Source: Cheilinus undulatus (Eukaryota > Chordata > Actinopteri > Labriformes > Labridae). Taken from it: a stretch of DNA of 64,000 nt. The DNA is taken from the NCBI RefSeq assembly GCF_018320785.1, contig NC_054882.1, positions 26,044,719 to 26,108,718 of the forward strand. Direction: 5' to 3'. Within the stretch, counting starts at the first letter, position 1. Every line of letters begins with the position of its first letter. A program made the translations under genes and the position numbers. Positions 1 to 48,886 of the stretch are shown here, in pieces. The notes under the pieces are model-generated. The model was not told the DNA's origin. It worked only from the letters and a program-made list of their open reading frames with translations, and made no database searches.

Positions 1-361
1 ATATACAAACTGTTCCATTTTTTTTCTGCTTAACAATGCATACAGGTCTATGATCAGTGGGTGGGAGTACTGTTAACCTACTGTATAAGCCACATTAATG
101 CATTATAGATTGTTCTATCTAATTAGCCTTCTGTAAATGCACATTGACTGTTTGCCGCTTGGCTTCAGCTAATACACTGTAGTCCTATCCAATCAAACAA
201 TAAAGGTAACAATGAGTCCTAGCCAATAAGAGACGAAGAAAGGCAGATGATGCCAAAAAATGCTAACCTTGCAATACACCCATTTCCTTGTTTCTCACTG
301 GTGAATCCATCTTGCAAAGCTCCCATCTGAACCGTTCTGGCCTGGTTAGAAAGTGACAGGA

Positions 362-390
362 CCAATCAGCGACGAGGGGCAGTATATTTA
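362..390 (+). promoter_or_regulatory. CCAAT box and TATA-like box inside transposon copy 1
   Basis: CCAAT lies at 362-366 and TATATTTA at 383-390, followed by a GTGACGTTAAC stretch at 408-418 and an ATG at 442. The same boxes and spacing occur on the opposite strand in the second copy, so the block belongs to the element. Promoter activity is inferred from motifs only. Confidence 0.45.
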
Positions 391-441
391 GGCGCAGCAG
401 AGTCGTGACGTTAACAAGCAGCAGCAAGAGCTGGTGCAGTT

Positions 442-534
442 ATGGAGAAAGAGATTAGCGTGGATGCTGTTAAAGCGCCAGTTTTATCAGAACTTGACAA
501 CATTTTTTTGTTAAAAGAAGAACAAAGAACTGCA
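442..534 (+). pseudogene. First coding exon of a helicase-like gene carried in transposon copy 1
   Basis: This is an open 31-codon exon from ATG 442 to a GTGAGT donor at 535. It ends with the residues LKEEQRTA. That ending resembles the segment just before the ATP-binding loop of RecQ/WRN-like helicases that are multicopy in fish genomes, where an LKEEQ-type stretch precedes the Walker motif. No Walker A or later helicase exon is found nearby, so this is an orphan first exon. The second copy keeps the same 31-codon frame despite several substitutions. The helicase label rests on a short match recalled from memory and is tentative. Confidence 0.4.
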
Positions 535-1913
535 GTGAGTTGTTTTGTTTTCAAAACAACGACAAAAGTCGAGTACTTACATATCTATAGTCGCCATGTT
601 TCACATTACTCCTCAGTAGCTGCACACGCGCAGCTCGATAGCAGCTACGTCATGTGTTTTGTTGCTCTGATTGGCCCGTAGAGATGTGAAAGACAAACCG
701 TTCACCCAATCACCCTCCAAGTTTTTTTTTCAAAGCCTCTGCCTTTTCTCAAATGTTTCCTATTAAAGCTTTCCCAGATGGATGTGTGAAACAAATCCAT
801 CTGGTGTGTCAGGTTAAAAAAATGCAACATACTACTGAATTATGTGCATCAGAGGGGATGTAGAAGTGGGTTTATTCTGGAGACTAAGATTAGAAATATA
901 CCTGCTGCATTCACCATTGTTTTGTGTTGCTGGAGGTCACCACTAAAGGGCATATGAGAGAGCTCAGGCTGTATAGTTGAGTGAGGTGTAAACTACAAAC
1001 ATGGAAACACATGTGGAGGTTACTATATTAACTGGCAAATTTCAATCGACTGCATTTGTGGATGTTGTCGTTACAGCAGCTGATGAAAATAGAGTCCCCG
1101 CAAAAGTCTTAAAGTCACCAGTTTACAGTCACTGCTTGAACTGAAACACCAATCTTATTTTTTGTTGTTTTACAGATTAAAGCAGCAAATTATTCAAACA
1201 AATGTATCTTTCACCAGCTGATATGACAGGCATGCTTGTCATCGTGTAGTGATAATAACACAGAGTGCAGATGTGGCTTATTACGGGACTTAGTTTTTAA
1301 GTTGATCAAAATACACAAGACCTCTCCTTTATATTCTTTCATACAAAAAAGGAAACAGCAAAGTTGTGAAAATCATACCAAAACAGCACCTCACTGAGAA
1401 AAAATGTGTCAAGAACAAGGCCACATTAGGTAGCATATTGTCCACCATGTATGCTGCCAGAAGCCCACTGTATTTATCTCAGCTTTTGTGGTTACTTGTT
1501 GCTGATGTTGAGAATCAAGTTTTGGCTGCTTAGTAGGTGGCGGCCTCATGCACTTATCCTTAGCATCTCACCCTGTGCAGATATATGCAAAGGTTTGATG
1601 TGGAGTCCATGGCAGTGGAGAGATGCTTCTGCCGGCACACGGTTTACACTTCACAGCCACATTCTTGTCCTTCTGTGAAACACATCCAAGTAGTGATCAT
1701 ATCTCCAGGCATCTTAAAAAGTCCTGATTTGAGCTGCTTTGCCATTTCCCTCACCTTCCTCCATGGACTTGAGAGGGTGTGTCAGTCATGTGAAATGGTG
1801 AGTGTTGCATGAGTGCGCATTGAAAGGGCTCGCGTTTTAAACTTAGTTGGAGGATTTACAGTAATGGTAGGAATAAGAAAACTATTTTACAGTGAAAGTA
1901 ATGTGGTCACCTG

Positions 1914-2068
1914 GGTGGAAAGTAACTAACTACATTTACTCGAAGTAGTGTAATTGAGTATTTGTTGGGTACTTGTATGAAATCAGTACTTTTACTTCTA
2001 CTTAAGTAAGTTCAACCAGATTAACTGTACTTTTACTTGAGCACAATACTCTTGTACTTTTTTCCACC
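1914..2068. repeat. Short TIR element of the TACTTTTACTT-rich teleost family
   Basis: GGTGGAAAGTAACTAA at the left is mirrored by GTACTTTTTTCCACC at the right, with many TACTT or ACTTGAGTA units between. This layout is typical of abundant short elements in fish genomes. The class is not determined. Confidence 0.5.
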
Positions 2069-2559
2069 TCTGTTTACTAGCACATAGTGAGAGAATGACT
2101 TCACATCACATACCATTTCATTTTTTTCACTCGAGTGTAATTTTATCTCCGTTCTGAATGAAATGCTCTTCAGTGTTGGAGTTACTTGACAGTGTTGATC
2201 CACCAGTATTACTTCAACTCTGTGAAGAGTCAATTGATCTAAGCTCTGCCCAATGCCATTTAAAATCTGGGGGGATCTATGGGCAGAGTTCCAATCATGT
2301 CCTTGTGCAGAGTGTTTAGATGCGTCTTAGTTGTGTTTGTATGTTGCCTGTTACAGTGATCCCTGCTGGGCTTCGTCTGCTTATGTTTCTGGTGGATTGT
2401 TGTGTTATGACTTTTATTAACACGGTCATTTTTGCTGTGTATTTGACTTTATTATAGAGTTGTGACTATTTCTGAGCCACCTGGTTGGAGATCTATTCCC
2501 TTGTTGTTTTTGCCAAAAAGGAATGATCATATTTTACTGTACAATGCCGCAGTAGCTAC

Positions 2560-2700
2560 CCAGTAAAGTAGACTTTAAAGAGAATACTTTTTACTTTTAC
2601 TTGAGTAGATTTATAGACCAATACATTTACTTGTACTTTAGTTAATTTTAACCTAAGTAACTGTACTTCTACTTGAGTACAACAGTTACAGTAACATATT
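2560..2700. repeat. Second patch of the TACTTTTACTT-rich repeat
   Basis: The stretch repeats TACTTTTACTTGAGTA-like units and resembles the copy at 1914-2068, but clear ends are missing. It is probably a decayed copy. Confidence 0.4.
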
Positions 2701-2878
2701 ACTTTGTACCAAACACTAGCAGCCATGATGCTTTTACATGCATGCAACAGCAAGTTTATCTCAGGCCTAAGTGGGCTAGACTCTGTATACCCTGCACTAC
2801 ACCACTGTCTGTGACTGTTGTTTTCTTTTCTGGAGTTGTAACAGTGCACCAATTAAACTACACAATCATGCAGACTGA

Positions 2879-3446
2879 CGGATCTTGTAACCTGACATGC
2901 CAGATGGATTTGTTTCACACATCCATCTGTAAAACCTTCAATACTAACCATTTGGGAAAGGGCAGAAGCTTTGGAAAAAAACTCAGAGTGTGACTGGATG
3001 AACGTTCTGTCTGACATATCTTTACGGGCCAATCAGAGCAACAAAACACGAGACATAGCTGCGACAGAGGTGCGCGTGCACAGCTACGCAAACCATGGCG
3101 ACTATAGACATGTAAGTACAAGGCTTTTGTCGTTTTTGAAAAGAAAACAACTCACTGCTGTTCTTTGTTCTTCTTTTAACGAAGAAATGTTGTCAAGTTC
3201 TGATAAAACTGTCACTTTAGCAGCGTCCATGCTAAGCTCTTCCACCATAATTGCACCGGCCTCTTGTTGCTGCTTGTTAACGTCACGACTCTGCTGCGCC
3301 TAAATATACTGCCCCTCGTCGCTGATTGGTCCTGTCACTTTCTAACCAGGCCAGAACGGTTCAGATGGGAGCTTTGCAAGATGGATTTGCCAGTGAGAAA
3401 CAAGGAAACGGGCGTATCCATCTGCTTTGCAAGGTTACGGATCAGA
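2879..3446 (-). mobile_element. ~550-bp DNA transposon copy 2, inverted relative to copy 1
   Basis: The element runs 2888-3437 and aligns along its whole length with the reverse complement of 264-816. That includes the CCAAT and TATA boxes, the 31-codon exon and the donor. The outer end begins TAACCTTGCAAAGCAGATGG and the inner end is its imperfect mirror. Flanks are CGGATCTTG at 2879-2887 and CGGATCAGA at 3438-3446, matching at six of nine positions. That suggests a worn target duplication and an independent insertion, not the far end of one larger element. Confidence 0.7.
3156..3248 (-). pseudogene. First coding exon of the helicase-like gene in transposon copy 2
   Basis: The ATG is at 3248-3246, followed by 31 open codons, and the exon ends at a GTGAGT donor (complement of 3150-3155). 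The residues SELDN and LKEEQRTA are shared with copy 1, while the start of the peptide differs at several positions. No following helicase exon is seen on this strand. Whether it is transcribed cannot be told from sequence. Confidence 0.4.
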
Positions 3447-24800: not shown

Positions 24801-27735
24801 TACATTTAGTGATTGTAAACTGTGTTCAAAGGCAGTCTGGAAGCAATATTTGCTCCCTATAAATACTTGACATTCTTTAGAATAAATGCAGTTCATATAA
24901 GGTGACACTGTCAGTAAAAGAAGCCCTGAAAGGATCATCTGCTATAATGCTGCTTTCCACAAAACTTCTGGATGTAAGAGAAAGTATTTAGGGGCTTTCA
25001 AAAGAGAAACTCATCTCAAGCATATGTTGTCTGTTAGGGTTTCATGTCGGCCTACCTCGCTGTCTCCCCCCTTGGCGTTCTCTTCTTCCTCTTCGTCTAC
25101 TCCTTGCAGGAGCTCATTCAGACGCTCCCTCTCTGTCTGGGTCAAAAACACCTGGCACCCCTCGCCACTTACTAGCTGATGCATATGGACAAAAAGAAAA
25201 AAAAGACTGACAGTCATTATTTACATTTGTACTCATCTTCATTGGTGGCCTAGTTGGCCTAAAATGTGTTTTTTTCTTGAGCTGAAGACAAATATTCCCT
25301 CACTGGAAAAACAAACAGTCTAGAGACTTGCTCCCAGTCATGCGATATACCCCAAGCACTGCATTTGGCCCGACATGAACTTTGACATACCTCAATGTTT
25401 CTCTTGACAAAGTCCTTCTGTTTTGTCTTGCCTTTGGAAGCTCCACTGTGGCTGCCTTCAAACTGCTCTTCAACAGTCTCCTTGTGGCCTACTTCAAATG
25501 ATTCTGTCCAGCTGTCTGGCATCTTTACACCTGTCAGGTAAGACACACTTAAGATTCTAGGAGGTAAATATCTAAAAGTGAGCCAAAGCCTTGATAATAG
25601 CCCAAAGCCAAGTCTGCTGAGAAGTTACAGCACTTCTGAGTGCTCTTATTCTGTCACCTAATCATTATTTCTGCCCTACGGGCATTGACTTCATTTTTAA
25701 AGAAGCCACAAGCTCAGGAAATTGTTTATGAGTTGCATAGTGGGTGAACTGTTAGGCATTCACTTCTGGAAAACTGCTTAATATCTGGGGAAGTGCCATG
25801 AATTCTGCACCTCTCTGTCATGAGGGGAAGAATGCAGCAACTGTAACTTCAACAAGCTTATGGCGCCATCAAGTGCACAATCCAGGGAATACAAGATGAA
25901 ATTAAATACAATGCCTACAAAAAGTATTCGCCCTCTTGGATGTTTTACCCTTTTATTGATTCTATAACTCAATCATGGTCCATATAGTTGGACTTTTTTG
26001 ACAAAAAAGACACAAAACCCTCTTAAATATCAAAGTGTAAACAGATTTTTACAAAGTAATGTCAACTGAATAAAAAATGTTGTGTAAATTAAGTGACTGC
26101 ATAAAAATTCACCCCATTCAAGTTAGTATTAGTAGATAAATCTTTGGCTGTATTCACAGCACTGAGCCGGTATTGATAGGTCTCAATCAGGTTTGCACAT
26201 CTGGACACTGCAATTTTACTCCATTATTCTTTGCAAAACTGTTAAAGCTCTGTCAGGTTGCACGAGCCTCCGGTGTGAACAGCCCTTTCAAGTCCAGCCA
26301 CAAATCCTCTATTGGATTGAGGTCTGGGCTTTGACTCAGCCACTCCAGAACATTCACCTTGTTGTCTTTTAACAATTTCTGTGCAGCTTTTGCTGTATGC
26401 TTGGGGTCAATGTCCTGCTTGAAAATAAATGTTCTCCCAAGTTGTAGTTCTTTTGCCAACTAAACAAGATTGTCCTCCAGGATTTTGCTGTAAGTTGGCA
26501 CATTCATTTTACCTTCTACCATCACATTGTCTTGAGGAAACCAGTGCCAAGGGCCTGCCTGTTCCTGGGGGCTGAAGTCTTGGTTTATGGACAATTATTC
26601 CTTCTATGTCTTGCTCTATTCTGTCTTCATTCTGTTCATATTTCTTCAAACAATTACAAAGATGGAGAAGGAACAATAAGCAGTGTTTTTGCCAAGCCAA
26701 TGGCATTTTTCAATCGGATCCACTCTCCCAGAGTGACTGGTTTGAGTTTGAGTTTTGTGTATGTTTAAATGACAAAAAAAAACACCCAATCATGCTGCTT
26801 TTCTTTTATTCTCACTTACTTTGTTCAGAGTGTTTTCTGTCTCTGGTGTGGTCACATTCAGGAACCTCAGTTTCAAACACATGCACAAAGGCCTCCTCCT
26901 CTGTCCCTTTAAGAGAAGATATTTAATCAGAATATAATGTACTACATTAACCACACTGTTCTTTGCCATGGTTCCTAATGTTGACCCTTACCTGTGGGTG
27001 ATTCAAGAGCCAAAAACAACCTTGTGTTCAAAGCTTCGTGGGCACATTCAGCATGACCTTCAGGCATACTCTGCTGCAAAATAATATAGATTTTACATCA
27101 CTTAGAACATTTTTTGTAAGATTTACACTTGAAGTGACCTGAAAATGAGACTGGGTCTACCTGGAGCTCTTGCCAGAGTCTTGCTTGAAGTTCTTTCCTT
27201 TGACGTCTGACTTCTGTTTCTCTGCAGATCTTTTCGGACAATATTTCATCAAGTCGCCTCATTTCCTCAATGGCTCTCTGTAGTCTTGAATCTTCTCTCT
27301 CTTCATCAGTAACTTTTTCGTGACCTAGAAGATGCACATAGCTATATTGCAGAAAGTGTCTGCTTGATACTTTAAATTGAACCATCCAAATAGTGTAAGT
27401 ACATTCCCTCTGTGGGTTGAGGAAAGCTGACCTTTATCATGACCTGTGGCAGATAAGTCCATGACAGTCTCTTTAGAGCAACTCTGGATCTACATGGGAT
27501 ATATTTCTTCAGTCACCAAAGTTTGTCAGGAAGTCATTATGATGTTAAAATGTCAGTGTTCTGACTCATTTACCTGAATACCAGTATCGTCGTTGCTCAA
27601 AACAACAAGTGAAAATGGAGTCGTTGGATAAACTCTGTCATTATGCGGCAATGACACGCTCGACACTCGGATACCTGTTTGTTCACTCGATGCAGGTCGT
27701 GAAATATCCTCTAAACTTCCTCTTATTATTTCCAT
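21858..27735 (-). CDS. fsip1: Fibrous sheath-interacting protein 1, eight coding exons, 3' end not found
   Basis: FSIP1 is a coiled-coil protein of the sperm-tail fibrous sheath and of cilia. Exons on the complement: 27574-27735, 27432-27489, 27161-27324, 26992-27073, 26820-26906, 25391-25530, 25056-25175 and 21858-22022. They total 978 bp (326 codons) and all join in phase with GT/AG sites. The start MEIIRGSLEDISRPAS matches the recalled human start MDIIKGNLDGISKPAS. Residues 75-128 form a charged coiled coil (LQRAIEEMRRLDEILSEK). The segment QKDFVKRNIE followed by ERERLNELL matches the family core. The last exon (GYTPEPSELEHLNNIDSKI) matches the human GYELAVTQHQQLAEIDIKL region. The donor after it (GTATGT) shows more exons follow, but none was found to its left. 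The start was chosen because upstream in-frame sequence is an intron acceptor (AG at 27758-27759). Confidence 0.85.
22170..22400 (-). mobile_element. Tc1-like transposase C-terminal remnant in FSIP1 intron 7
   Basis: On the minus strand it encodes WPDPNPIEN, the degenerate form of the Tc1 PDLNPIE block that precedes the last catalytic acidic residue region. A relative lies at 58870-59310. Stops follow at once, so it is dead. Confidence 0.65.
22401..25055. other. FSIP1 intron 7, nothing further recognised
   Basis: This is the rest of the ~3-kb intron between exons 25056-25175 and 21858-22022. The 89-codon minus frame at 23825-24094 has no family match. AGCTAGC-rich words occur near 22880-22920. 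Confidence 0.4.
25905..26545 (-). mobile_element. Tc1-like transposon fragment in FSIP1 intron 5
   Basis: The minus strand encodes a transposase piece (QDIDPKHTAKA, then SPDLNPIEDLW), covering the second and third catalytic blocks, with one internal stop. The left edge carries the inverted end GCCTACAAAAAGTATTCGCC and GGATGTTTTACCCTTTTATT. The same end closes the plus-strand copy at 48025-48886. The 5' half is missing. Confidence 0.8.
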
Positions 27736-29305: not shown

Positions 29306-32300
29306 ATGTGCAATGGAATGATAGAGTCAACATCAAAAGCCTGTTTGGCCCGCACCTCAGCCACTAAGCGATCCCTCGTACTGCTGGTGGTATTTTCTGC
29401 AGTGTCCACCGGACAAGGGACAGGTAAGAGAGGCAAAATCTGTGGTTCATACCCAAATTGCAAATGTGTAAATTCATTTTTAAGGGTGCTGTTTGTTGTG
29501 CCATAAAAACAAATTGATTCGAAGATATTTTCATTGCAATATTGGTTGAGATATCATCGTCCACTTAACTAAACAAATAATCTGTCATATAGTCATTGCT
29601 AAACTTGACTATGGAGTAGTTTTAGCTCATTAAAAATCCAATATTTCAAGATAAAAGTTGAACCATCTTAAGATGTAACATCAAGTTTTTGCCTATAGTT
29701 TTCAGTAGGACAGGAAACACTAGAAATTCACCAGTAATGATACCAGGCTAAAAGGTGCAACTGTTACATATCCAATTTGAAATAAATACTGTTTGTTAGT
29801 TTGTGTTAATACCTGTTAATGTTGTATGACAGTGTCCAGAAATAATTCTGTAAGCAAAATGAGTTATTTTGACTGATAAAATTCACTTGCATTCTATTGT
29901 AGATATGAAACAAGATATTAACTGTATCTTCTTAATTGTCTATTTGTACTTAAGATTGCAAAGCATACAAGAATAGTTTTATTAATATGTACTTTCCTTG
30001 TTTAACTACTTAGCAAAGAGAGAGCAGAGTCTCAAGTTTTCCCAGTAGCTCTCAAATAAAGCATAACATTGTGAAGTGTTTATTGGTTATCCTTTGATCA
30101 GAAAGTACAATGTGTACTTGTTATGTTCACCACCTGTATGTGTTGCCATCACAAAACCTTTCTGGTACAGAAGGTTACCTTAGGTCATTCTGTATCCCTT
30201 CTGCTCATTGCTTAAATATATATATAAAACCAGGCTCAAAATATTTGTCTTTTCGGTTTAACTATTTCGAATCATTTCATCATCGTCTTCTTCTGTCTTC
30301 TCTTTCTAGGATGTGTGAGGCCTTACATGGTCCAGAACAGCTGGGTAAACCTCACCGAAACCAACAGGGGCTCGTTCCCTGTGGGCACAGTACTGAAGTA
30401 CAGCTGTGACCCTGGTTACCTACCCGATGGACCCAGCATTCTCACCTGCACCACACAGGGACGCTGGACCTCTGACCCTCCTCGCTGTATACGCAGCGGT
30501 GGTAAGTTATTCTTTTCTTGACTGGCTGCATTTAGCTTATAAGACAGCAGCTGTGCCACCTGGGGAGCAGTGGCAAGTGCCAGAACTATAGTGGTACGTC
30601 AGTATTCCTATATTGTGTCCCATTGATTCAGTGACATGTTCCATTTATTCAGTGGTAATTGCCTTGGCTGATGGCATGACACTTGGGGAGCCAGGGGTAT
30701 GTACTACTTGACTGTCACTAGTACCATCTTCCACCACTGTGATGAATATTACTGAAATGTAATTTTTTATTTATTAACTAGGTAATTGCAACATGGTGAT
30801 GTTATCATGGGAAGAAGAAGTGATTTCATTCACATATCCTTGTCCTTGGTACCACTAAGCTTGAAGTAAAATGTATCTGAGCTAACAAAGTTAGCCTAGC
30901 CACAGTCAGAATAGCCAATAGCAGAAAGAGTACAATCCTACTTTGAATCATTCCCAACCTGAGGAAATACTTTGACTGGCTAACCTGTTTCTGTCAACAT
31001 TATATATTATTGAATGGCAAAGACGTTAGGCTGCATGTATTGATTACACCTGGTATGGTTTCATTGCAATATCAAGTGTATAATACTGTGTTCATTTCTG
31101 TGTTGTGGGTCTTATTTACAAAAGACTAAAACTTCTGTACTTTCACTTGTTTTCAGATTTGTGCTGCATTTTGTCTTTCCCATGATTTTTGCCAGTTTTG
31201 CTTACCTTTAAATCTGAATGTTTATTTTCTTCTTTAGCTTGTCTACCCCTCTCCAAACCTGAGAATGGGGGCTACACCTGTCACCCAACCCCTTGTCGAA
31301 TGTTTTCTCATGGCACTGTCATCGAGTTCTTCTGTGATGAGGGCTTCATTCTCACCGGGGACTATTATTACCTGACCTGTCAGGATGGACAGTGGGACGG
31401 CCCCATGCAGATCAGCTGTGTGAGCCAAGGTTTGTTCAGCCCTCAATCTCTGATCTATCTCCAGTCTATCAACAGTTAACATTGATGTATTTAATGGCTG
31501 ATTTTGAGCTTATTGAAGGCCATTTTTATTTGCTTTTGTAGATAAATTAGTCTGTTAAAGACATGGATACGATATCTCTTTTCTATCTCTTTTAATTCAG
31601 TTCTAAGTATCATAAAATGTATTTCTTCACTTTTTTTTGTTATTCTCTGTTCTTCTTTTAACTGTAAAGAACTACTAAACATGTCAGAATATGTGACTTA
31701 ATATTGACATTGGGAGATACTGACTTTATTCTTGAATGTGTTCTCCTTTTAAGGTTGTATAAGGCCATCTACAGTGCAGCATGGAACAACTAACCTAACA
31801 GACACCAACAGGAACCTGTTTCCAGTGAGCACAGTACTGCAGTACAGCTGTGACCCTGGTTACCTGCCAGATGGACCAAGCATCCTCACCTGCACTTCAC
31901 TGGGACAGTGGTCTTCTGAGCCTCCTCACTGCGTACACAGTGACGGTAAATACACTCTTCCCCACAATCCTATGACCCGTGCGTTGATGATTTTAGCCTT
32001 TCTCTACATGCTGAGCTTAAAGGGGACATATTGGACAAAAATCCCCTTTTCAGGCTTTTCTAACTAAACTATGTGTCCCTGGTCTGTCCACAATCCCCTC
32101 AAGTACCAGAAAAATCCCTCCCCTCCCTCCCTCTCTTTATCCACATTTCAGCAAATTTGTGCTGAAACAAGCCATTCTCAGATTTTCCCCTCATGATGTC
32201 ATGTGGGGAGTAAGCACTGCCCCCAGGTCCGGTTGGCCCTCCCCCGCTTGGAAGAAAGTTCTGCCCCCCTCTCCTGATCTTCCTCTGATCTGCCAGCTGA

Positions 32301-35127
32301 GAGGAGGATCAGGAGAGCCACATCCATTAAGCCACATCCATTTCCTGAGAGGGCTGGAGTCAGAGGCAGAGTCAATCAGCTCATTAACATTTAAAGCCAC
32401 AGACACAGAAACAGCACGCTCTGAGCAGGGCTGAAACAGAGGGGTTTTTAGACATACAAAAATCCTATACTAGAGTGTTTATTCAGCAAGAGACTTCACA
32501 GGCATGTTTTGGGAACCTCTGAGATCAATATAAACTTGTCTTAAAACAGTAAAATATATCCCTTTTAACTGTCACTTACAGTTTAACTTTTTAAGCTAAT
32601 ATCTGCTGAAACCAATATTAAGCCAATAATGTCATACATCCCTAATCTTTAACACTATCTTAAGGCAGCATAAACTGCCAATAAACTCCAGGCCTGTAGT
32701 AAGAAGCAAAATCAGCATATTGATAATACATTTTTAAGACCACACCTTGTTCATAACAAGGCTAAGGCTAAAATGAAACACAGCTTCACATTCTGTGAGA
32801 ATGCATAGAACAGTTTTCCTCTAGTATTACGATACCAGTATATCTAACTGAACATGTCTGTTTTTCATGTTACATAAAGGTGTTCAGATGTTTTATTATG
32901 GTGTGTATGCCAGTTTTAGCCTTATTTTTCCAGCTAACAATATTCACACCGAACAAATGATACACATTAAAATGTAATTTAAGACATTAATCAAAAGCCA
33001 GAGTGTTTTGCCTCTCATATTAGCATGTACTGCAACCTGAATAGATGATACTTGCTTTAGAATACCATTGTCAAGATTATTCACTTATTTAACTCAAATG
33101 TAAGTTTTATTATTAATGTCATTTTTTATGTTTTCTTTTAATTTGACGTGAGTTTTCAACATCTGGTCTATCTTACTTGGTTCGATTTCAGTTCAATCAA
33201 TCGGTGAGTCTTTTTTGTAGAGCACTACGCCATAGCTAATATTATGTCAAGACTCTTTACAAAGAGGGTAGGTCCAGACTTTGCTCTTTGATGTTGTATT
33301 ACTTATGAAGATCAAACATTTATCCACCATCAGCTCAACACTAAACTTACTATTGAAGAGAATTCTAAAGTTTTCTTTGTTAAATGTAATATAGACAACA
33401 CCTGTGATCGTTTATTTTTAATGGAAAATTTAAATGCGTTTTTTACTGTTCTGTTCTATTTTCCAGGCTGTATACGACCCTCTACTGTGCAGCACGGCTC
33501 GACTAACCTGACAGAAACCAACAGAAGCTCATTCTCAGTGGGAACAGTTCTGGAGTACCACTGTGATCCGGGTTACCTGGCAGATGGACCCAGTGTCCTC
33601 ACCTGCACCACCTCAGGACACTGGACCTCTCAACCTCCTCGTTGTGTACGCAGCGACGGTAACAACACATCTCCTTAAACCTCTCATGAAACATCTTTAC
33701 AGTTGGAATCAGCATATTTATTTTAAAAAAAGCATTACATGTTAGGTGTGTTAAAATTTGGGATTTGTTATTTTTTAATTTGATAGTTCTTTGGATTCTG
33801 TGTACTAGTGAACCAAACCTCAGTGCTAGAGCTAATGTATTCACCGTGTTCTTTTTATCATGAACAGTGTGCCAGTCTCCATATCAACCAGAGAATGGGG
33901 GCTACACCTGCCACCCCTCCTCGTGTGGGAGACTTTCTCACGGTACCGTGGTTGAATATTTCTGTGATGAAGGCTATATTCTGAAAGGGGACTACAAATA
34001 CCTGACCTGTCAGTACGGGGAATGGGACAGTCAAATGAAGATAAGCTGCATCATGGAACAAGGTAAAAATAGACACACTGGTAAGACAAGTGTAGCATGA
34101 GAAGAATAATCAGCATAACCACTGTATTCATAATTATTTATATTTTTAGACCGGGATACAACCCTACCACTGGGGATGCCTGCCTTGTCCATAGTGGCAT
34201 CCACAGCCAGCTCGGTGGCTCTGATCCTGCTTCTGGTGGTTCTGTTTGTACTTCTGCAGCCAAAACTTAAGTCCCTTCACCGGTGAGTCTGTCTTCATAT
34301 CATTCTGAGGAGCTGAAGGCGTTTGTCCACATAGTTTTTCTGGCAGGGACTGAACATTGTGTGATAACTGTAGCTGACAATAAAAAGGGAAATAAACAGG
34401 CTTTCCAGCAGTGTAAGATTTATTGCCAAGAAGCAATGTTAAAACAAAGAAATAACCTACCAAACAAATTTCCCTACATTTTTGTGCTACGTATATGCAT
34501 CTCGTACACAAATTTCCATAGTAATCCAAAGGTGTGCTATACTTCTATACATGGTGTTCATTGATTGTGAAAGCACAAGCATGGGGAATATTAATCTTAT
34601 TCTGGTTTTCCTCCCCAGGCGTGACCAGGGTGTGACAGGCCAGCCTGTGTCCATCATGGTGGAGGGAGTCCAGGTGACTCTGCCCTCCTATGAAGAAGCT
34701 GTGAGTGGTAGCAGAGCCTCGTCATCAGCTCTCAGCTCAGAGTCTCGGGTTCAGATAGTGCTGTCCGAGGGTCAGCACGTCACAGCACCTGAGGCAGGCC
34801 CCTCTCGACCTTCGTCCCTCAAACAGCAACAGTCAGAGATGGCTGTGGTCCACCCTGTACCACCATCCTCATCATCCTCTCCATCACCCTCTCCCTCATC
34901 CTCCACCTGGGTACTGGAGCAAGTAGGCGCTGCCGCTCCTTCGTCCTCACAAAGACGGCGGTCAGCTGGTAGTGAGCAACACAGCCTGTCTCTGGACTCT
35001 GAGTTTGACTACTCTGATGGTAAAAAACCCTCTTCATATTCACTTTTAACTCATTTCATCCACACTTAGCACTCATGCAAATACTCCTCTGTTGTTTTCA
35101 GATATGCCCTTACTGAAGGAGGCCTGA
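29306..35127 (+). CDS. susd6: Sushi domain-containing protein 6 with five sushi domains
   Basis: This is a single-pass membrane protein. Human SUSD6 is a p53 target and, with TMEM127 and the ubiquitin ligase WWP2, promotes MHC class I turnover. Exons: 29306-29423, 30310-30501, 31238-31429, 31754-31945, 33467-33658, 33868-34062, 34150-34282, 34619-35019, 35102-35127. They total 1641 bp (546 residues), all in phase. Residues 20-35 form the signal peptide core. Sushi exons cover residues 40-360 in the order A-B-A-A-B. Type A has four cysteines; type B has six and matches the single human domain (PENGGYTCHP, GDYKYLTC). The membrane segment (about 373-397, SIVASTASSVALILLLVV) and tail (RRDQGV, VQVTLPSYEEAV, ending MPLLKEA) match human closely. 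LPSY is a possible WW-domain ligand. Start MCNGMIES fits human MCHGRIAP. Human SUSD6 is about 303 residues. Confidence 0.9.
32017..32568. mobile_element. MITE in the SUSD6 intron between sushi exons 3 and 4
   Basis: TTAAAGGGGACATATT at the left is mirrored by AAAATATATCCCTTTTAA at the right, about 550 bp apart, with no coding frame of note. This end sequence is frequent in fish genomes. The superfamily is not determined. Confidence 0.55.
34370..34500 (+). mobile_element. End fragment of the 36730-type Tc1/mariner MITE in a SUSD6 intron
   Basis: AGATTTATTGCCAAGAAGCA and following bases match the right inverted end of the element at 36730-37278. Only one end is present, so it is a solo fragment. 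It lies between the membrane exon and the tail exon. Confidence 0.6.
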
Positions 35128-42000: not shown

Positions 42001-44843
42001 CTTCCAGTCAGGTGAAGTAATGAGCTACCCCTCGTCCATTCAACTGTCACCATCCAGACACCTACCAAATAAATAAGTTTCTCTTAATTTACCAAAGAGT
42101 TTCGACTGGGTTGAATTTGTTTGCTTGTTTGTTTTAATCTATGACATTATTAAAATTAGACTTGTGGTAGCTAATACTAACAAACCTAATGCCTAATACA
42201 GAAGCTAGCAAGTAAGCTAGCATAGTTGTCTGGGGAAGTAGCAAGCTCACTCGCTCAATACGATGGCGACTGGATGAGAGGTTAAGCTCATTGCTTAGTT
42301 TGATTGGAAGGCGGTTGGAGAGCGGGGCGTCCAGGCAGCTGCCGCCTTCCAGGTGAAGCTGAGTGCACAAAACACCACCAGGGATGGGAATTGGTAAGAT
42401 TTTATCGATATTGATGCTGTTATCGTTTTTGGATCACTAAAAATGTTAAACATCCTGTGTTTGGGAGGAAAACATCCTAAAATATACAAAAAAAAAATCA
42501 TTTTTTTGTTGGATATGTCTCAGTTAAAACAAACTTCTCTCTGAATCTTTAATCCGTGAACTTGAAATTAGAATACAGTACTACTGCTCATTTTCTTTAA
42601 AGATAAAAACCTTAAAATAAATATAAAACTAATCTCTGCATCCTAGATCCTTGGAGGTATCAAAATAAATTGAACTCCTGTGCAAAATTAACAGTTCTTG
42701 TGCAAAACAATGCATGTCATGCATTAGACATCACTGTTTGCCAGATGTTTCACAATGCCTTGTGTGTCATTTTCGAAGAAATGAAGCAACACTTTTTACT
42801 GCTTTAGTCTGTGTTTGTGACAGTTCACTAGAAATGGGTGGTAATACGGTAATACAATATCCTTGGGTACTAAAATAGCCATGGTGTTGCTTTGATTACC
42901 ATCATGAAGATGGTGCTGTGTGATGAGCACACATTAGTAATCAATTTCTAGAGAATATGTGTATTTTTCCGCCCACAGTACCACCGCCTGTGTATTAAAC
43001 TTTAAAAGTGATTACTGAACTCCTGTTAATGATGAACAGTCAAACTGTTAGACAAGCTCTAATGTGATCCAAGACAACGTGAGTTTAAAAACACTCTAAC
43101 TCTTCTTTCTGGGTATACATCAGTGATGAGAAATTATTATGCATACCCACAGGTGCTGCGTCTTGCTGCAGCCATGCAAGGTACAGTCAAAACCACTGAG
43201 GGTTTTTAAAAACATTTAAACTTATCTTTACCAGTTTAATGTGAAATGTAGATGAAATTATTCAATGCTTGTTGGTCATTTTATGTGCTTGAGTATTCTG
43301 TAACTTTTTATAAGATCATCATAAAGTAAACACTCAGCAGGATGGAGCTCGCCATTGAAGCACAACAGAGATATAAAATGATAATAAAGTCCAATCCTTA
43401 TCTGTTTAAAAGCACACTGAACATTACATCACATTCCCAGATTCTATGATATTAGATTAGGATAATCACTTCAAAGAGTCAAAAGAGAAACTTAATTTGA
43501 TCCCCTGCCCTGATTTAACCTGTTTTACCTAAATAATTCACTTCTCCTGCTCCTGTAAACTTCTTATAAACCTGTTTAATTTTAGACTCAAAGCATTTTG
43601 ATAACGGGTTAGATGAAGTGCGTTGTGCGTATGCATGCACACCAACAAGAGCTTGTTTAATGTGTTTTTTACACACCTTGCAGAGATACTGTATAGTCCT
43701 GTAAATTATTGTCTATGTCCTAAACCTCTCTGTTCCTATTTGCTGACTGCCAGATGCGAGGCCTGTATTTTATGGCATGCAGGAGTGAGGCATCGATAAG
43801 GGAATCGTTAAGATAAAATGTAAATGATGTCAATGGATCCAGCCAATTGGTTCTCAACGTGGTGTTACACCACTGAGTAAATATATGCTGCCTTCCAGGT
43901 AGGCCAGCTTCTTCACTTATTTCTTGATATGCAGTTTAAGTCCTGTTTTATCTCAGTAATACAAGAATATGAATATTGAAAAGATGATCTTATCCCTAAT
44001 GGCTACAGGTAGTTTATTAGCTTTATACAGTATCCATGCATAAAAAAGGGCACTTTCTCTTATTGGACACCAGATGAAACTAATTAACAAAATCCACTAT
44101 TGCATTTCCTCCAAATAAAATAAATCTAGATTATTGTTAAGATCCTCACTTTTTTGATGAATGGGGAGTACTTTGGTTTGTAGTGATTGATGGCGATGCC
44201 AGTGGCACAGGGCACCACTGTCAACAGGAGGGCAGTGATGATGCCGAGGTAGGGTACATTGTCTTTCAGACTGGGGAAGCCTTGGCAGTAAATAAAGAGC
44301 AGCAGAGGCATCATACCCAGGGCGGCAATACTGGAGAAAGTAGTCATCACGATGCTGAAAGGAATAAGAGAGGCGTGTGAAGTTATAAATCTGATGCCTG
44401 AAATGCAACAAGACAAAGCTGAATGTATGAATGAAGGTTTACCTGAGGTTCATGTCGCCCTGTACAGCAAGACTGAATATGTTTGATAATGACCCCCCCG
44501 GACAGCAGCCGCATATGAGCACGGTCACGGCCTTGTAAGGACTCATCTTAAGCACTTTAGCTAAACAGAAAGCAGTCAGAGGCATGATGCCGAACTGGGC
44601 CAGCAGAGCAATGCCAACTCCCTTTGGTTTTAGGCAATGGGCTTTTATTTTGGAAACCTCCATCGTACAGCCAAGCGATACCATGGTGATGAAGAGGAAG
44701 ACGACGGATAAGGTGTTGATGATGGCATTTAGAAAGGGAGGGATGTTCAGGAGAGCCAGGCCTCCATTGTCAGTGAGATTTCCATCATTAGAAAAATGAG
44801 TTGTTCCATTGTAGACGTCTGTGATGTTCATGATAGTAGTCAT
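39008..44843 (-). CDS. slc10a1: Sodium/bile acid cotransporter (NTCP family), complete
   Basis: NTCP imports conjugated bile acids with sodium across the hepatocyte basolateral membrane. Exons on the complement: 44443-44843, 44150-44354, 40152-40330, 39197-39396, 39008-39039. They total 1017 bp (338 residues; human 349) in continuous phase. Start MTTIMN was chosen over an upstream ATG because that sequence is a pyrimidine-rich acceptor ending at 44858. The N-terminus has NXT sites (NIT, NGT, NLT) and no signal peptide, as in the family. Conserved blocks: [24 protein letters not shown], the [12 protein letters not shown] crossover loop, GDMNL and [11 protein letters not shown] with the sodium-site Glu and Gln (residues 270 and 274). 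Residue 280 is Phe where human has Ser267. The tail is short ([10 protein letters not shown]). It is closer to SLC10A1 than SLC10A2 in the METGCQN region, and the SUSD6 neighbour agrees. Confidence 0.9.
39410..39660 (-). mobile_element. Tc1/mariner-like transposase C-terminal remnant in an SLC10A1 intron
   Basis: Minus-strand translation gives [12 protein letters not shown] then, after a break, [10 protein letters not shown]-like or [11 protein letters not shown]-like residues in shifted frames. The latter resembles the WxxIPxE block near the C-terminus of Tc1/mariner transposases. Frames are broken. The call rests on a short match. Confidence 0.45.
40675..40702. repeat. Poly-C/poly-A low-complexity tract
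   Basis: A run of thirteen C is followed at once by a run of A. It lies in the largest SLC10A1 intron. Confidence 0.8.
40800..41010. repeat. Degenerate tandem repeat of CCCCTTTTTGCC/CCACTTTTA units
   Basis: About 210 bp consists of loosely repeated units such as CCCATTTTTGCC, CCACTTTTA and ACCCCTTTTTGCC, strongly pyrimidine-biased on the plus strand. It lies in an SLC10A1 intron. The open frame across it comes from the bias. Confidence 0.55.
42380..43830. repeat. Decayed hAT-like repeat region in an SLC10A1 intron
   Basis: GGGATGGGAATTGGTAAGAT followed by ATCGATATTG near 42380-42430 resembles the ends of a fish hAT-like family. The partly inverted GCATCGATAAGGGAATCGTT lies at 43790-43810. 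The interior has no transposase frame. Limits and class are uncertain. Confidence 0.3.
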
Positions 44844-44857
44844 CTCAGCACTGTCAC

Positions 44858-45790
44858 CTGACACACAAAGCACATGAAGGACAATCAGAGCAGAGAAAGT
44901 GTTGGGAGGTAAGAATGAAAAAATCATTTTACTGCATCTTTTGGCTTATTCTGCTCTTTTATTTTTATCATTTTGAACGTAAAGCACCCATTATAAATCT
45001 TACCTGTTGTGCTGGTTTATAATTGTCAGCTGACAGATTAGTTCAGCTCAGGATAAAATTAAATCAAAATATTGCCTGTAAAAATGTAAACCACTGTGTA
45101 ATGTTTCTTTCATTGCTTCTTCTAATTTGTTACTGAATGATTTGTTGTAATGATTTCCTCAGCCAGGTTGTTTGAGGAGAATTTCATCACATGCAAGCTC
45201 TACTTCAAACTCCAGTTTCAAAGATTACTTTATGCGGAGGTTTTCCTCTGATACTGACTTCTAACAAAGTTCCAACAAGTGATGCAGTATCCTTGATCAG
45301 TATTGATTGGTAAGTATTGCACTGACCTGTCACAATGCTATCAGTTTTCAGACATCAGCACAGTCTGGCCTTTATCACTGATCAAGTAAAGTGACAGAAG
45401 GTGCAGTTTAGACCTACAGAAGTTGAAAACAGGCACTTATTAATGTCTTCCATCATTCAGTTATGTATTTGAATAATTATTACATCATTTTAATGCAACT
45501 GAATGCATTTCAACTAAAGTCTCTGCTTTTTTTTCACTGTTTTGAAAATGTAAGTGCATATTTACAGTTTACGTCTTACAATTCTCCTTGCAGAGAGGAG
45601 AACAAACTGTTGGCTATGATGGACGCTGTCACCTCATGGAGAGCATGTCCAGCTGCAGGCTGCTCTTACTGAGCTGCTCCACAAACAAACTAAGGAGACC
45701 CTCCCTCTTAGGGGCCACCAGACTGCATAACACCATGCTGGGGAGGAGCTGGGGGGGCACCAGCAATAAAGTCACTTAAGTGCTATGCCA
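44858..45790. other. Upstream of SLC10A1, no exon assigned
   Basis: The untranslated first exon and promoter of SLC10A1 should lie here or further right, but no donor could be assigned with confidence. Open frames at 45463-45779 follow an acceptor-like TCTCCTTGCAG but resemble no gene; they may be from a retroelement. Confidence 0.35.
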
Positions 45791-48024: not shown

Positions 48025-48886
48025 TGCCACCAAGACACCTATGACTACTCTGATGGAGTTACATGCTTCAGCAGCTGAGATAGGAGAGATTCTGCATACA
48101 ACAACTGTTGCCCAGGTTCTCTACAGTCAAAGCTAGACTTCACCAAAAGACGTGGAAATCCCCATGGTCAAGCTGAAGAAAGTTCTTTGGTTTGATGGAG
48201 CTTTTTGGCCATCAGACAAGACACTATGTTTGGCAGACACAAAACACTGCACATCTCTACAAACACACCATCTCCATTGTGAAGCACAATGGTGGCAGCA
48301 TCATGCTGTGGGGATGCTTCTCAGCAGCCTGGAAAAAAAGACTTGTAAAGGTAGAGGGTAAAATGAATGCGGAAAATACAGGAAAATCCTGGAGGACAGT
48401 CTTATTCCGTCTGCAAGAGAACTATGATAGTGACCCAAAGCATACAGCGAAAGCAAAAGCAAAAGCAGAAATGGTTTAAAGATAACAGGGTAAATGTTGC
48501 GGAGTGGCCAAGTCAATGCCCAGACCTCAGTCTGATAAAGAATTTGTGGCTGGACTTGAAAAGGGCCATGACAGAGCTTGAGCAGTTTTGCAAAGAAGAA
48601 TGGAGGAAAATTGTAGTATCCAGAAGTGCAAGCCAGATTGCAGCCAACGGTGCATCTACTAAATACTGACTTGAAGGAGGTGTTATTTATGTAGTCACGT
48701 ATTTTTCATTACATAGTTTTAGTCAAATAACATTACTTTAGAAATCTGTTTGCACTTTGATATTAAAGAGGGTTTTTTGGTCAGAAAAGCGCAAATTTTA
48801 TTGACCATTATTGATTTATAAAATCAATGAAAGGGTAAAACATCCAATGGGGTGAATACTTTCCATAGACACTGTATAGGCCTACT
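48025..48886 (+). mobile_element. Tc1-like transposon fragment, plus strand
   Basis: Transposase pieces in shifting frames read in order: HASAAEIGEILHTTTVAQVL (helix-turn-helix side), KHNGGSIMLWGCFSA and DPKHTAKA (catalytic core), then QCPDLSLIKNLWLDLK. The right end AAACATCCAATGGGGTGAAT at 48839-48858 matches the inverted end of the copy at 25905. Several frameshifts and an inserted AAGCAA-type repeat make it dead. Confidence 0.8.

Follow-up and report, generated by a model that had tools for sequence, protein, structure and literature searches.

Two inverted miniature transposons in Cheilinus undulatus and their probable descent from a helicase element

Does a short repeat that looks like a promoter followed by an open first exon donate that exon to its neighbours, or is it what was left of a larger mobile element? 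The question is raised by two inverted sequences of about 550 bp near the start of a 64,000-nucleotide stretch of the Cheilinus undulatus genome (contig C18:26044719-26108718; hereafter the window). The initial annotation of the window had described them as independently inserted transposons, each holding promoter motifs, a start codon, and a splice donor, which might trap downstream exons. We found that they are very probably miniature inverted-repeat transposable elements (MITEs) descended from a helicase transposon of about 9 kb, and not exon traps.

The two copies and their family

The two copies align with each other over their full length in a global alignment, in opposite orientation and 2.07 kb apart, and a local alignment gives 86.4% identity over 544 columns (copy 1 positions 11-553; E 0), which bears out their description as inverted, end-to-end copies. 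The 9-bp flanking repeats ascribed to them are likewise present, exact at copy 1 and alike at six of nine positions at copy 2, whose flanks are given on the plus strand:

255-263: left target-site duplication of copy 1, AAAAAATGC, an exact match to 817-825
264-816, plus strand: miniature copy 1, 553 bp, with the ends TAACCTTGC...GTCAGGTTA
817-825: right target-site duplication of copy 1, AAAAAATGC
2879-2887: decayed target-site duplication of copy 2, CGGATCTTG, a 6/9 match to 3438-3446
2888-3437, minus strand: miniature copy 2, inverted relative to copy 1, 550 bp, 9.1% from the family majority
3438-3446: decayed target-site duplication of copy 2, CGGATCAGA

We searched the 1.17-Gb genome with copy 1. 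The search, in which 40 of 6,655 first-look candidates were scored, listed 41 places. One was copy 1; the remainder were 39 further long copies (90-92%) and a piece of 50 bp, and copy 2 did not appear in the list. An internal 18-mer had 5,771 exact matches in the genome (2,836 forward and 2,935 reverse), with none in either direction for the reversed control (0 + 0), and the family comprises at least several thousand copies.

Tabulation of the 9-bp flanks, which had been set as a check on the insertion model, showed that the duplications recur. The 39 listed copies and the two of the window made up a set of 41 close copies, three of which were dropped for want of a recognisable end. The remaining 38, the two of the window among them, could be read at both ends: 23 have an exact duplication and 32 one with at most one mismatch; exact duplications of 7, 8, 10, or 11 bp were found in none of them. 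Because the 39 were chosen as the best matches to copy 1, this set is biased towards it. Four miniature copies in C10:21830231-21857716 have one common target duplication and are spaced at multiples of about 5.3-5.6 kb; they were probably copied along with a duplicated segment. Since these four represent one copied event, the 23 exact duplications amount to about 20 independent ones.

A second sample, not picked by score, consisted of the first 40 listed 18-mer places on contig C1, and the frame near the 18-mer is favoured in it because the copies were picked by that word. Eighteen of the 40 span the family majority sequence from position ≤20 to ≥540. Both ends are readable in 29, with an exact duplication in 4, a match at ≥8 of 9 positions in 13, at ≥7 in 16, and at ≤6 in 13. 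Independent insertion of a short transposon with 9-bp duplications, as originally proposed, holds, borne out by copies elsewhere that have duplications of their own, and many copies have decayed.

A large coding relative and the deletion junction

A genome search with a RecQ-family model gave 28 matches, three of which lie on contig C14 within 1,086,116-1,088,087, none of them above the cut-off of that family. The miniature left end adjoins these matches in a large element of 8,995 bp (C14:1079324-1088318), whose target duplication, AAAACCAGC/AAAACCAGA, agrees at eight of nine positions. Positions 1-295 of the miniature majority align to the left end of this C14 element at 84%, and positions 290-356 (84%) and 392-559 (93%) align to its right end. 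The left and right alignments overlap at majority positions 290-295, where five bases, TTTCT, match both sides, and an overlap with such a short common word at the joint is the mark expected of a single internal deletion. The joint falls at codons 34-36 of the helicase gene and codons 16-18 of the opposing gene. Read from these alignments, the miniature is a C14-type element minus one internal deletion. The corresponding features of the window are as follows:

442-534, plus strand: truncated helicase gene start in copy 1, 31 codons, not a complete exon, aligned to the C14 element
535-540, plus strand: GTGAGT in copy 1, the donor of the initial annotation, read as Val-Ser in the C14 element
543-548, plus strand: deletion junction in copy 1, the overlap of left and right homology at majority 290-295; position worked out by hand
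573-597, minus strand: truncated second-gene start in copy 1, ATG at 597, its GTAAGT aligning with an open frame of the C14 element
3095-3119, plus strand: truncated second-gene start in copy 2, counterpart of 573-597
3142-3147, minus strand: deletion junction in copy 2, the same overlap; position worked out by hand
3150-3155, minus strand: GTGAGT in copy 2, counterpart of 535-540
3156-3248, minus strand: truncated helicase gene start in copy 2, counterpart of 442-534

The C14 element carries a superfamily 2 helicase gene on broken pieces. Its frame runs through MAEDISVDAAIASVLSELDDISSLKQEQRTA, continues with VS, encoded by GTGAGT, and goes on to SFL...LLPTGF (...EQRTA-VS-SFL...LLPTGF...); translated in this way, GTGAGT is coding (Val-Ser) in the C14 copy. 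Pfam DEAD matches residues 47-111 of this left frame on a broken piece (E 7.8e-05), in a match that begins inside the 31 codons that the miniature retains and crosses the supposed donor, and a downstream piece matches Helicase_C above the cut-off (E 1.2e-12, 48.5 bits). On the opposing strand, ATGGCGACTATAGAC-AT-GTAAGT of the miniature corresponds in the alignment to ATGGCGACTGTTGACAAGTCAGTT in the C14 element, and the frame there gives MATVDKSVHDFCRFCKENLRVKGTL before a stop codon. Further along that strand lies a match to DUF6589, from which we infer that the second, convergent gene may encode the transposase. The full-length relative with a transposase, which the initial annotation had proposed to look for, was found as far as the larger relative itself is concerned; its transposase gene is a putative one.

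The miniatures resemble MITEs in being short (553 and 550 bp in the window), in lacking a complete protein gene, in their constant-length duplications and high copy number, and in having ends and duplication length in common with a larger coding element, of which one was found. They differ from MITEs in that the 5′ ends of both large-element genes can still be recognised in them, with at least 31 helicase codons kept.

The following course of events would account for the family. A transposon of about 9 kb with two convergent genes would have been the source, and one internal deletion would have fused the RecQ-like helicase gene (left, plus strand), at about codon 35, with the opposing gene (right, minus strand), at about codon 17. 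The resulting miniatures would have kept the terminal and subterminal repeats, and an autonomous relative may have moved them in trans, making the 9-bp target duplications as they went. They would then have amplified to thousands and would now be decaying, so that their gene starts, CCAAT boxes, and "donors" would be leftovers and not a working exon trap. The window copies would later have exchanged a 120-bp tract by gene conversion.

The coding source of the miniatures is nearly gone from the genome, and near-loss of the coding source is common for MITEs. At the sensitivity used, the C-terminal region of the helicase found three places in the genome, the query itself and two short fossils (C9:4467661-4467821, 88% identity; C12:2269420-2269923, 70%), neither of which shows both ends; a single 41-base match to the start of the helicase lies in the C12 stretch. 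Five RecQ/DEAD places were compared for miniature sequence nearby, and C14 was the only matching one, those on C7, C1, C21, and C24 having no miniature match within 9.9 kb. The C7 and C1 frames presumably belong to host DEAD-box genes. As side observations, a further miniature copy lies about 8 kb from the C14 element, and amino-acid repeats in tandem occur at one of the C9 and C12 fossil loci.

Retained gene starts and the exon-donor proposal

Both window copies do contain the CCAAT, the TATA-like box TATATTTA, the ATG, the 31 open codons, and the GTGAGT that had been ascribed to them, and in the right half of each lies a further stub with its own ATG, on the other strand, that was absent from the initial annotation. 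The peptide frame is open in both, as had been claimed, and its being open is uninformative: in 20,000 simulated trials, the frame survived 11 random substitutions in 54% of cases when these were uniform and in 66% when they were transition-rich. Compared with the majority, the 31 codons of 39 copies show 103 nonsynonymous changes, 30 synonymous changes, and 2 stops, a nonsynonymous/synonymous ratio of 0.90 by sites and 1.27 when transition-weighted; between the window copies, the stub codons have dN 0.133 and dS 0.112. The codon changes in the stub look neutral, with no sign of selection, and we rejected selection for the stub peptide on account of these near-neutral changes and of a frame likely to be open by chance. 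The 32-residue peptide matched nothing in phages and no Pfam family, and its sole match in the PDB was a designed repeat protein (E 1.3); it is too short to classify by itself. Searches with exact DNA patterns gave no match in viral_contigs or genome_contigs.

Could the elements nevertheless be a mobile promoter plus 5′ exon, donating a transcription start, a start codon, and a splice donor to downstream exons? The retention of the motifs would favour this: ATG, 31 open codons, and GTRAGT (R, A or G) are kept in 32 of the 41 close copies and the left CCAAT in 37, and both strands carry the CCAAT-ATG-GTRAGT module, with ATG and GTRAGT of the opposing strand kept in 28. In the second sample, however, just 19 of the 40 copies keep the ATG, the open frame, and GTRAGT, a figure to be read as at least 19 because small indels shift the donor away from the fixed distance at which it was sought. 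Nor is the TATA-like box a family feature, as TATATTTA occurs in the window pair alone among the 41 copies and the majority reads GTACTTTCAGG. An exon trap ends its exon with a functional 5′ splice site, whereas the left GTGAGT is coding, with the DEAD match across it, in the sole large element found; it might still see use as a cryptic site. Exon donation is unsupported because GTGAGT there runs on into the helicase frame. On the opposite strand, the C14 element has GTCAGT, not the GTAAGT of the miniature, inside an open frame of 25 codons. With a coding GTGAGT, neutral codons, an unexceptional donor, and a TATA-like box private to the pair, the proposal of a mobile promoter and exon finds no support, and we regard it as very unlikely.

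Several observations weigh against the descent from a helicase transposon that we prefer. Only one near-complete large copy was found, that on C14, and it is broken. Its DEAD match is below the Pfam cut-off (22.9 vs 26 bits), and the continuity of the frame at the "donor" is read from this single copy together with that match; the copy also seems short of a few residues before helicase motif I, if the pattern we assume for that motif is right. The right-side frame is open for just 25 codons and matches no family, and of seven opposing-strand pieces one matches DUF6589 above the cut-off (E 8.5e-15), one weakly (E 0.0046), and five not at all. A two-strand CCAAT-ATG-open-GTRAGT architecture is rare by chance, occurring in 1 of 3,000 shuffles and 0 of 238 window segments by criteria fixed after the copies had been seen; it is explained by retained gene starts, and transcription is still compatible with it. 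Finally, the eight bases from GTGAGT change less than the stub (0.016 vs 0.037 per site). As a control, 101 of the 554 six-base windows of the element, 20 of the 88 inside the stub among them, are as conserved as GTGAGT, which places the left GTGAGT on the conserved side without making it exceptional; for the opposite-strand "donor", the corresponding number is 345 of 554.

The pair might also be the two ends of one composite element spanning 264-3437, as their opposite orientation and their spacing of 2.07 kb would allow. Each copy has its own 9-bp duplication, though, exact at copy 1 and decayed at copy 2, and the outer flanks, AAAAAATGC and CGGATCAGA, are unlike, on which ground we rejected the composite element. 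Whether copies always pair as the ends of something larger had been named as a check; they do not, and copies with their own duplications occur elsewhere in the genome. A composite element has next to no chance of being correct, and two separately inserted miniatures remain our reading of the pair.

Classification, the identical tract, and wider meaning

The AcademH lineage of the Academ superfamily was reportedly set out by Kojima in 2020, and we consider AcademH-like a likely name for the present family. The resemblance lies in the 9-bp target duplications of the miniatures, the helicase gene, and the occurrence in an animal. AcademH encodes a helicase and makes duplications of 9 or 10 bp, compared with 3 or 4 bp for AcademX, according to an excerpt of PMC10045372. 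DEAD and Helicase_C, which matched the broken C14 pieces (DEAD below the cut-off), are among the domains listed for AcademH, KolobokH, or Helitron, taken together, in an excerpt of PMC10799480. The difference lies in the second gene: we could not tie this putative transposase gene to Academ, and the piece of it that has a match belongs to DUF6589, a name that turned up in no paper in our literature search.

Kolobok elements duplicate TTAA, whereas the duplication here is of 9 bp without a fixed sequence and the host is a vertebrate. KolobokH is, as described in an excerpt of PMC9587614, a fungal DNA transposon with a RecQ helicase, reported there from fungi only; the RecQ helicase is what it has in common with the C14 element. 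Another superfamily with 8-10 bp duplications, such as the Mutator-like elements (MULEs), would fit the duplication length. MULEs make duplications of this size, occur in animals including fish, and can have terminal repeats of <60 bp (2 of 14 mosquito families), as stated in an excerpt of PMC5225508. Long (>100 bp) terminal inverted repeats are absent from the present family, however, the termini being imperfect ends of about 22 bp (17/22 alike, by eye, in the majority) plus inverted AGATGGAT motifs, and the C14 element carries a RecQ-like helicase gene. Placement in such a superfamily, and not in Academ, is in our view quite improbable. The family is largely explained as an ordinary high-copy, non-autonomous derivative of an AcademH-like helicase transposon.

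One feature of the window pair is not common to the family at large, a tract of identity between the two copies:

304-423, plus strand: 120-bp tract of copy 1 identical to copy 2, including the TATATTTA box at 383; position worked out by hand
3268-3387, minus strand: identical tract in copy 2, counterpart of 304-423; position worked out by hand

Beyond the tract, the copies differ at 55 of 379 positions, and the longest identical run in 20,000 column shuffles was 103, compared with the 120 seen. Within it, they are each other's nearest of 40 (distance 0); outside it, none of the 40 is farther from copy 1 than copy 2 is (0.139), and copy 1 ranks 34th of 40 from copy 2, distances that are biased by the choice of copies resembling copy 1. 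The simplest reading is that the pair probably exchanged the tract by gene conversion between inverted neighbours. A subfamily common to both copies, or functional constraint, could also produce the identity, and a subfamily could be missed among 39 compared copies picked for likeness to copy 1. Against this, the variants common to the pair within the tract occur in 0 of 39 other carriers at sites 84, 85, and 132 and in 1 of 39 at sites 133 and 136, copy 2 is nearest to copy 1 in the tract yet farthest outside it, and the other copies vary inside the tract about as much as elsewhere. We hold subfamily membership or constraint to be unlikely, and conversion to be the better account.

Elsewhere in the window, a short element-like stretch lies between the two copies at 1913-2068, with inverted ends GGTGGAAAGTAACTAAC...GTACTTTTTTCCACC and a related piece near 2580-2700; we take it to be another fish MITE. 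A DDE_3 match below the Pfam cut-off at 48367-48669 (plus strand) lies inside 48177-48669 (plus strand), presumably the remains of a Tc1/mariner-like transposase. Exons of host genes are represented by two Sushi repeats (31753-33678, plus strand), a sodium/bile-acid symporter match (44439-44945, minus strand), and an FSIP1 match (27098-27433, minus strand), which together indicate a vertebrate host.

What appeared in the raw sequence as a plausible mobile exon turns out, step by step, to be the two ends of a helicase transposon joined together. A MITE family of at least several thousand copies is linked to a nearly lost coding relative, with the deletion junction located, and inverted repeats in the window offer a local example of probable gene conversion. 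For genome annotation, the family carries a warning, as gene prediction can mistake such stubs for first exons. Each miniature retains the start regions, CCAAT boxes included, of two convergent genes, and we see a small chance that the genome carries several thousand dispersed two-way promoter stubs, with short open frames and cryptic GTRAGT sites, some of which may now supply host genes with first exons or alternative promoters; if so, promoter variants such as the new TATATTTA box would spread wherever neighbouring copies undergo gene conversion, as the window pair probably did.

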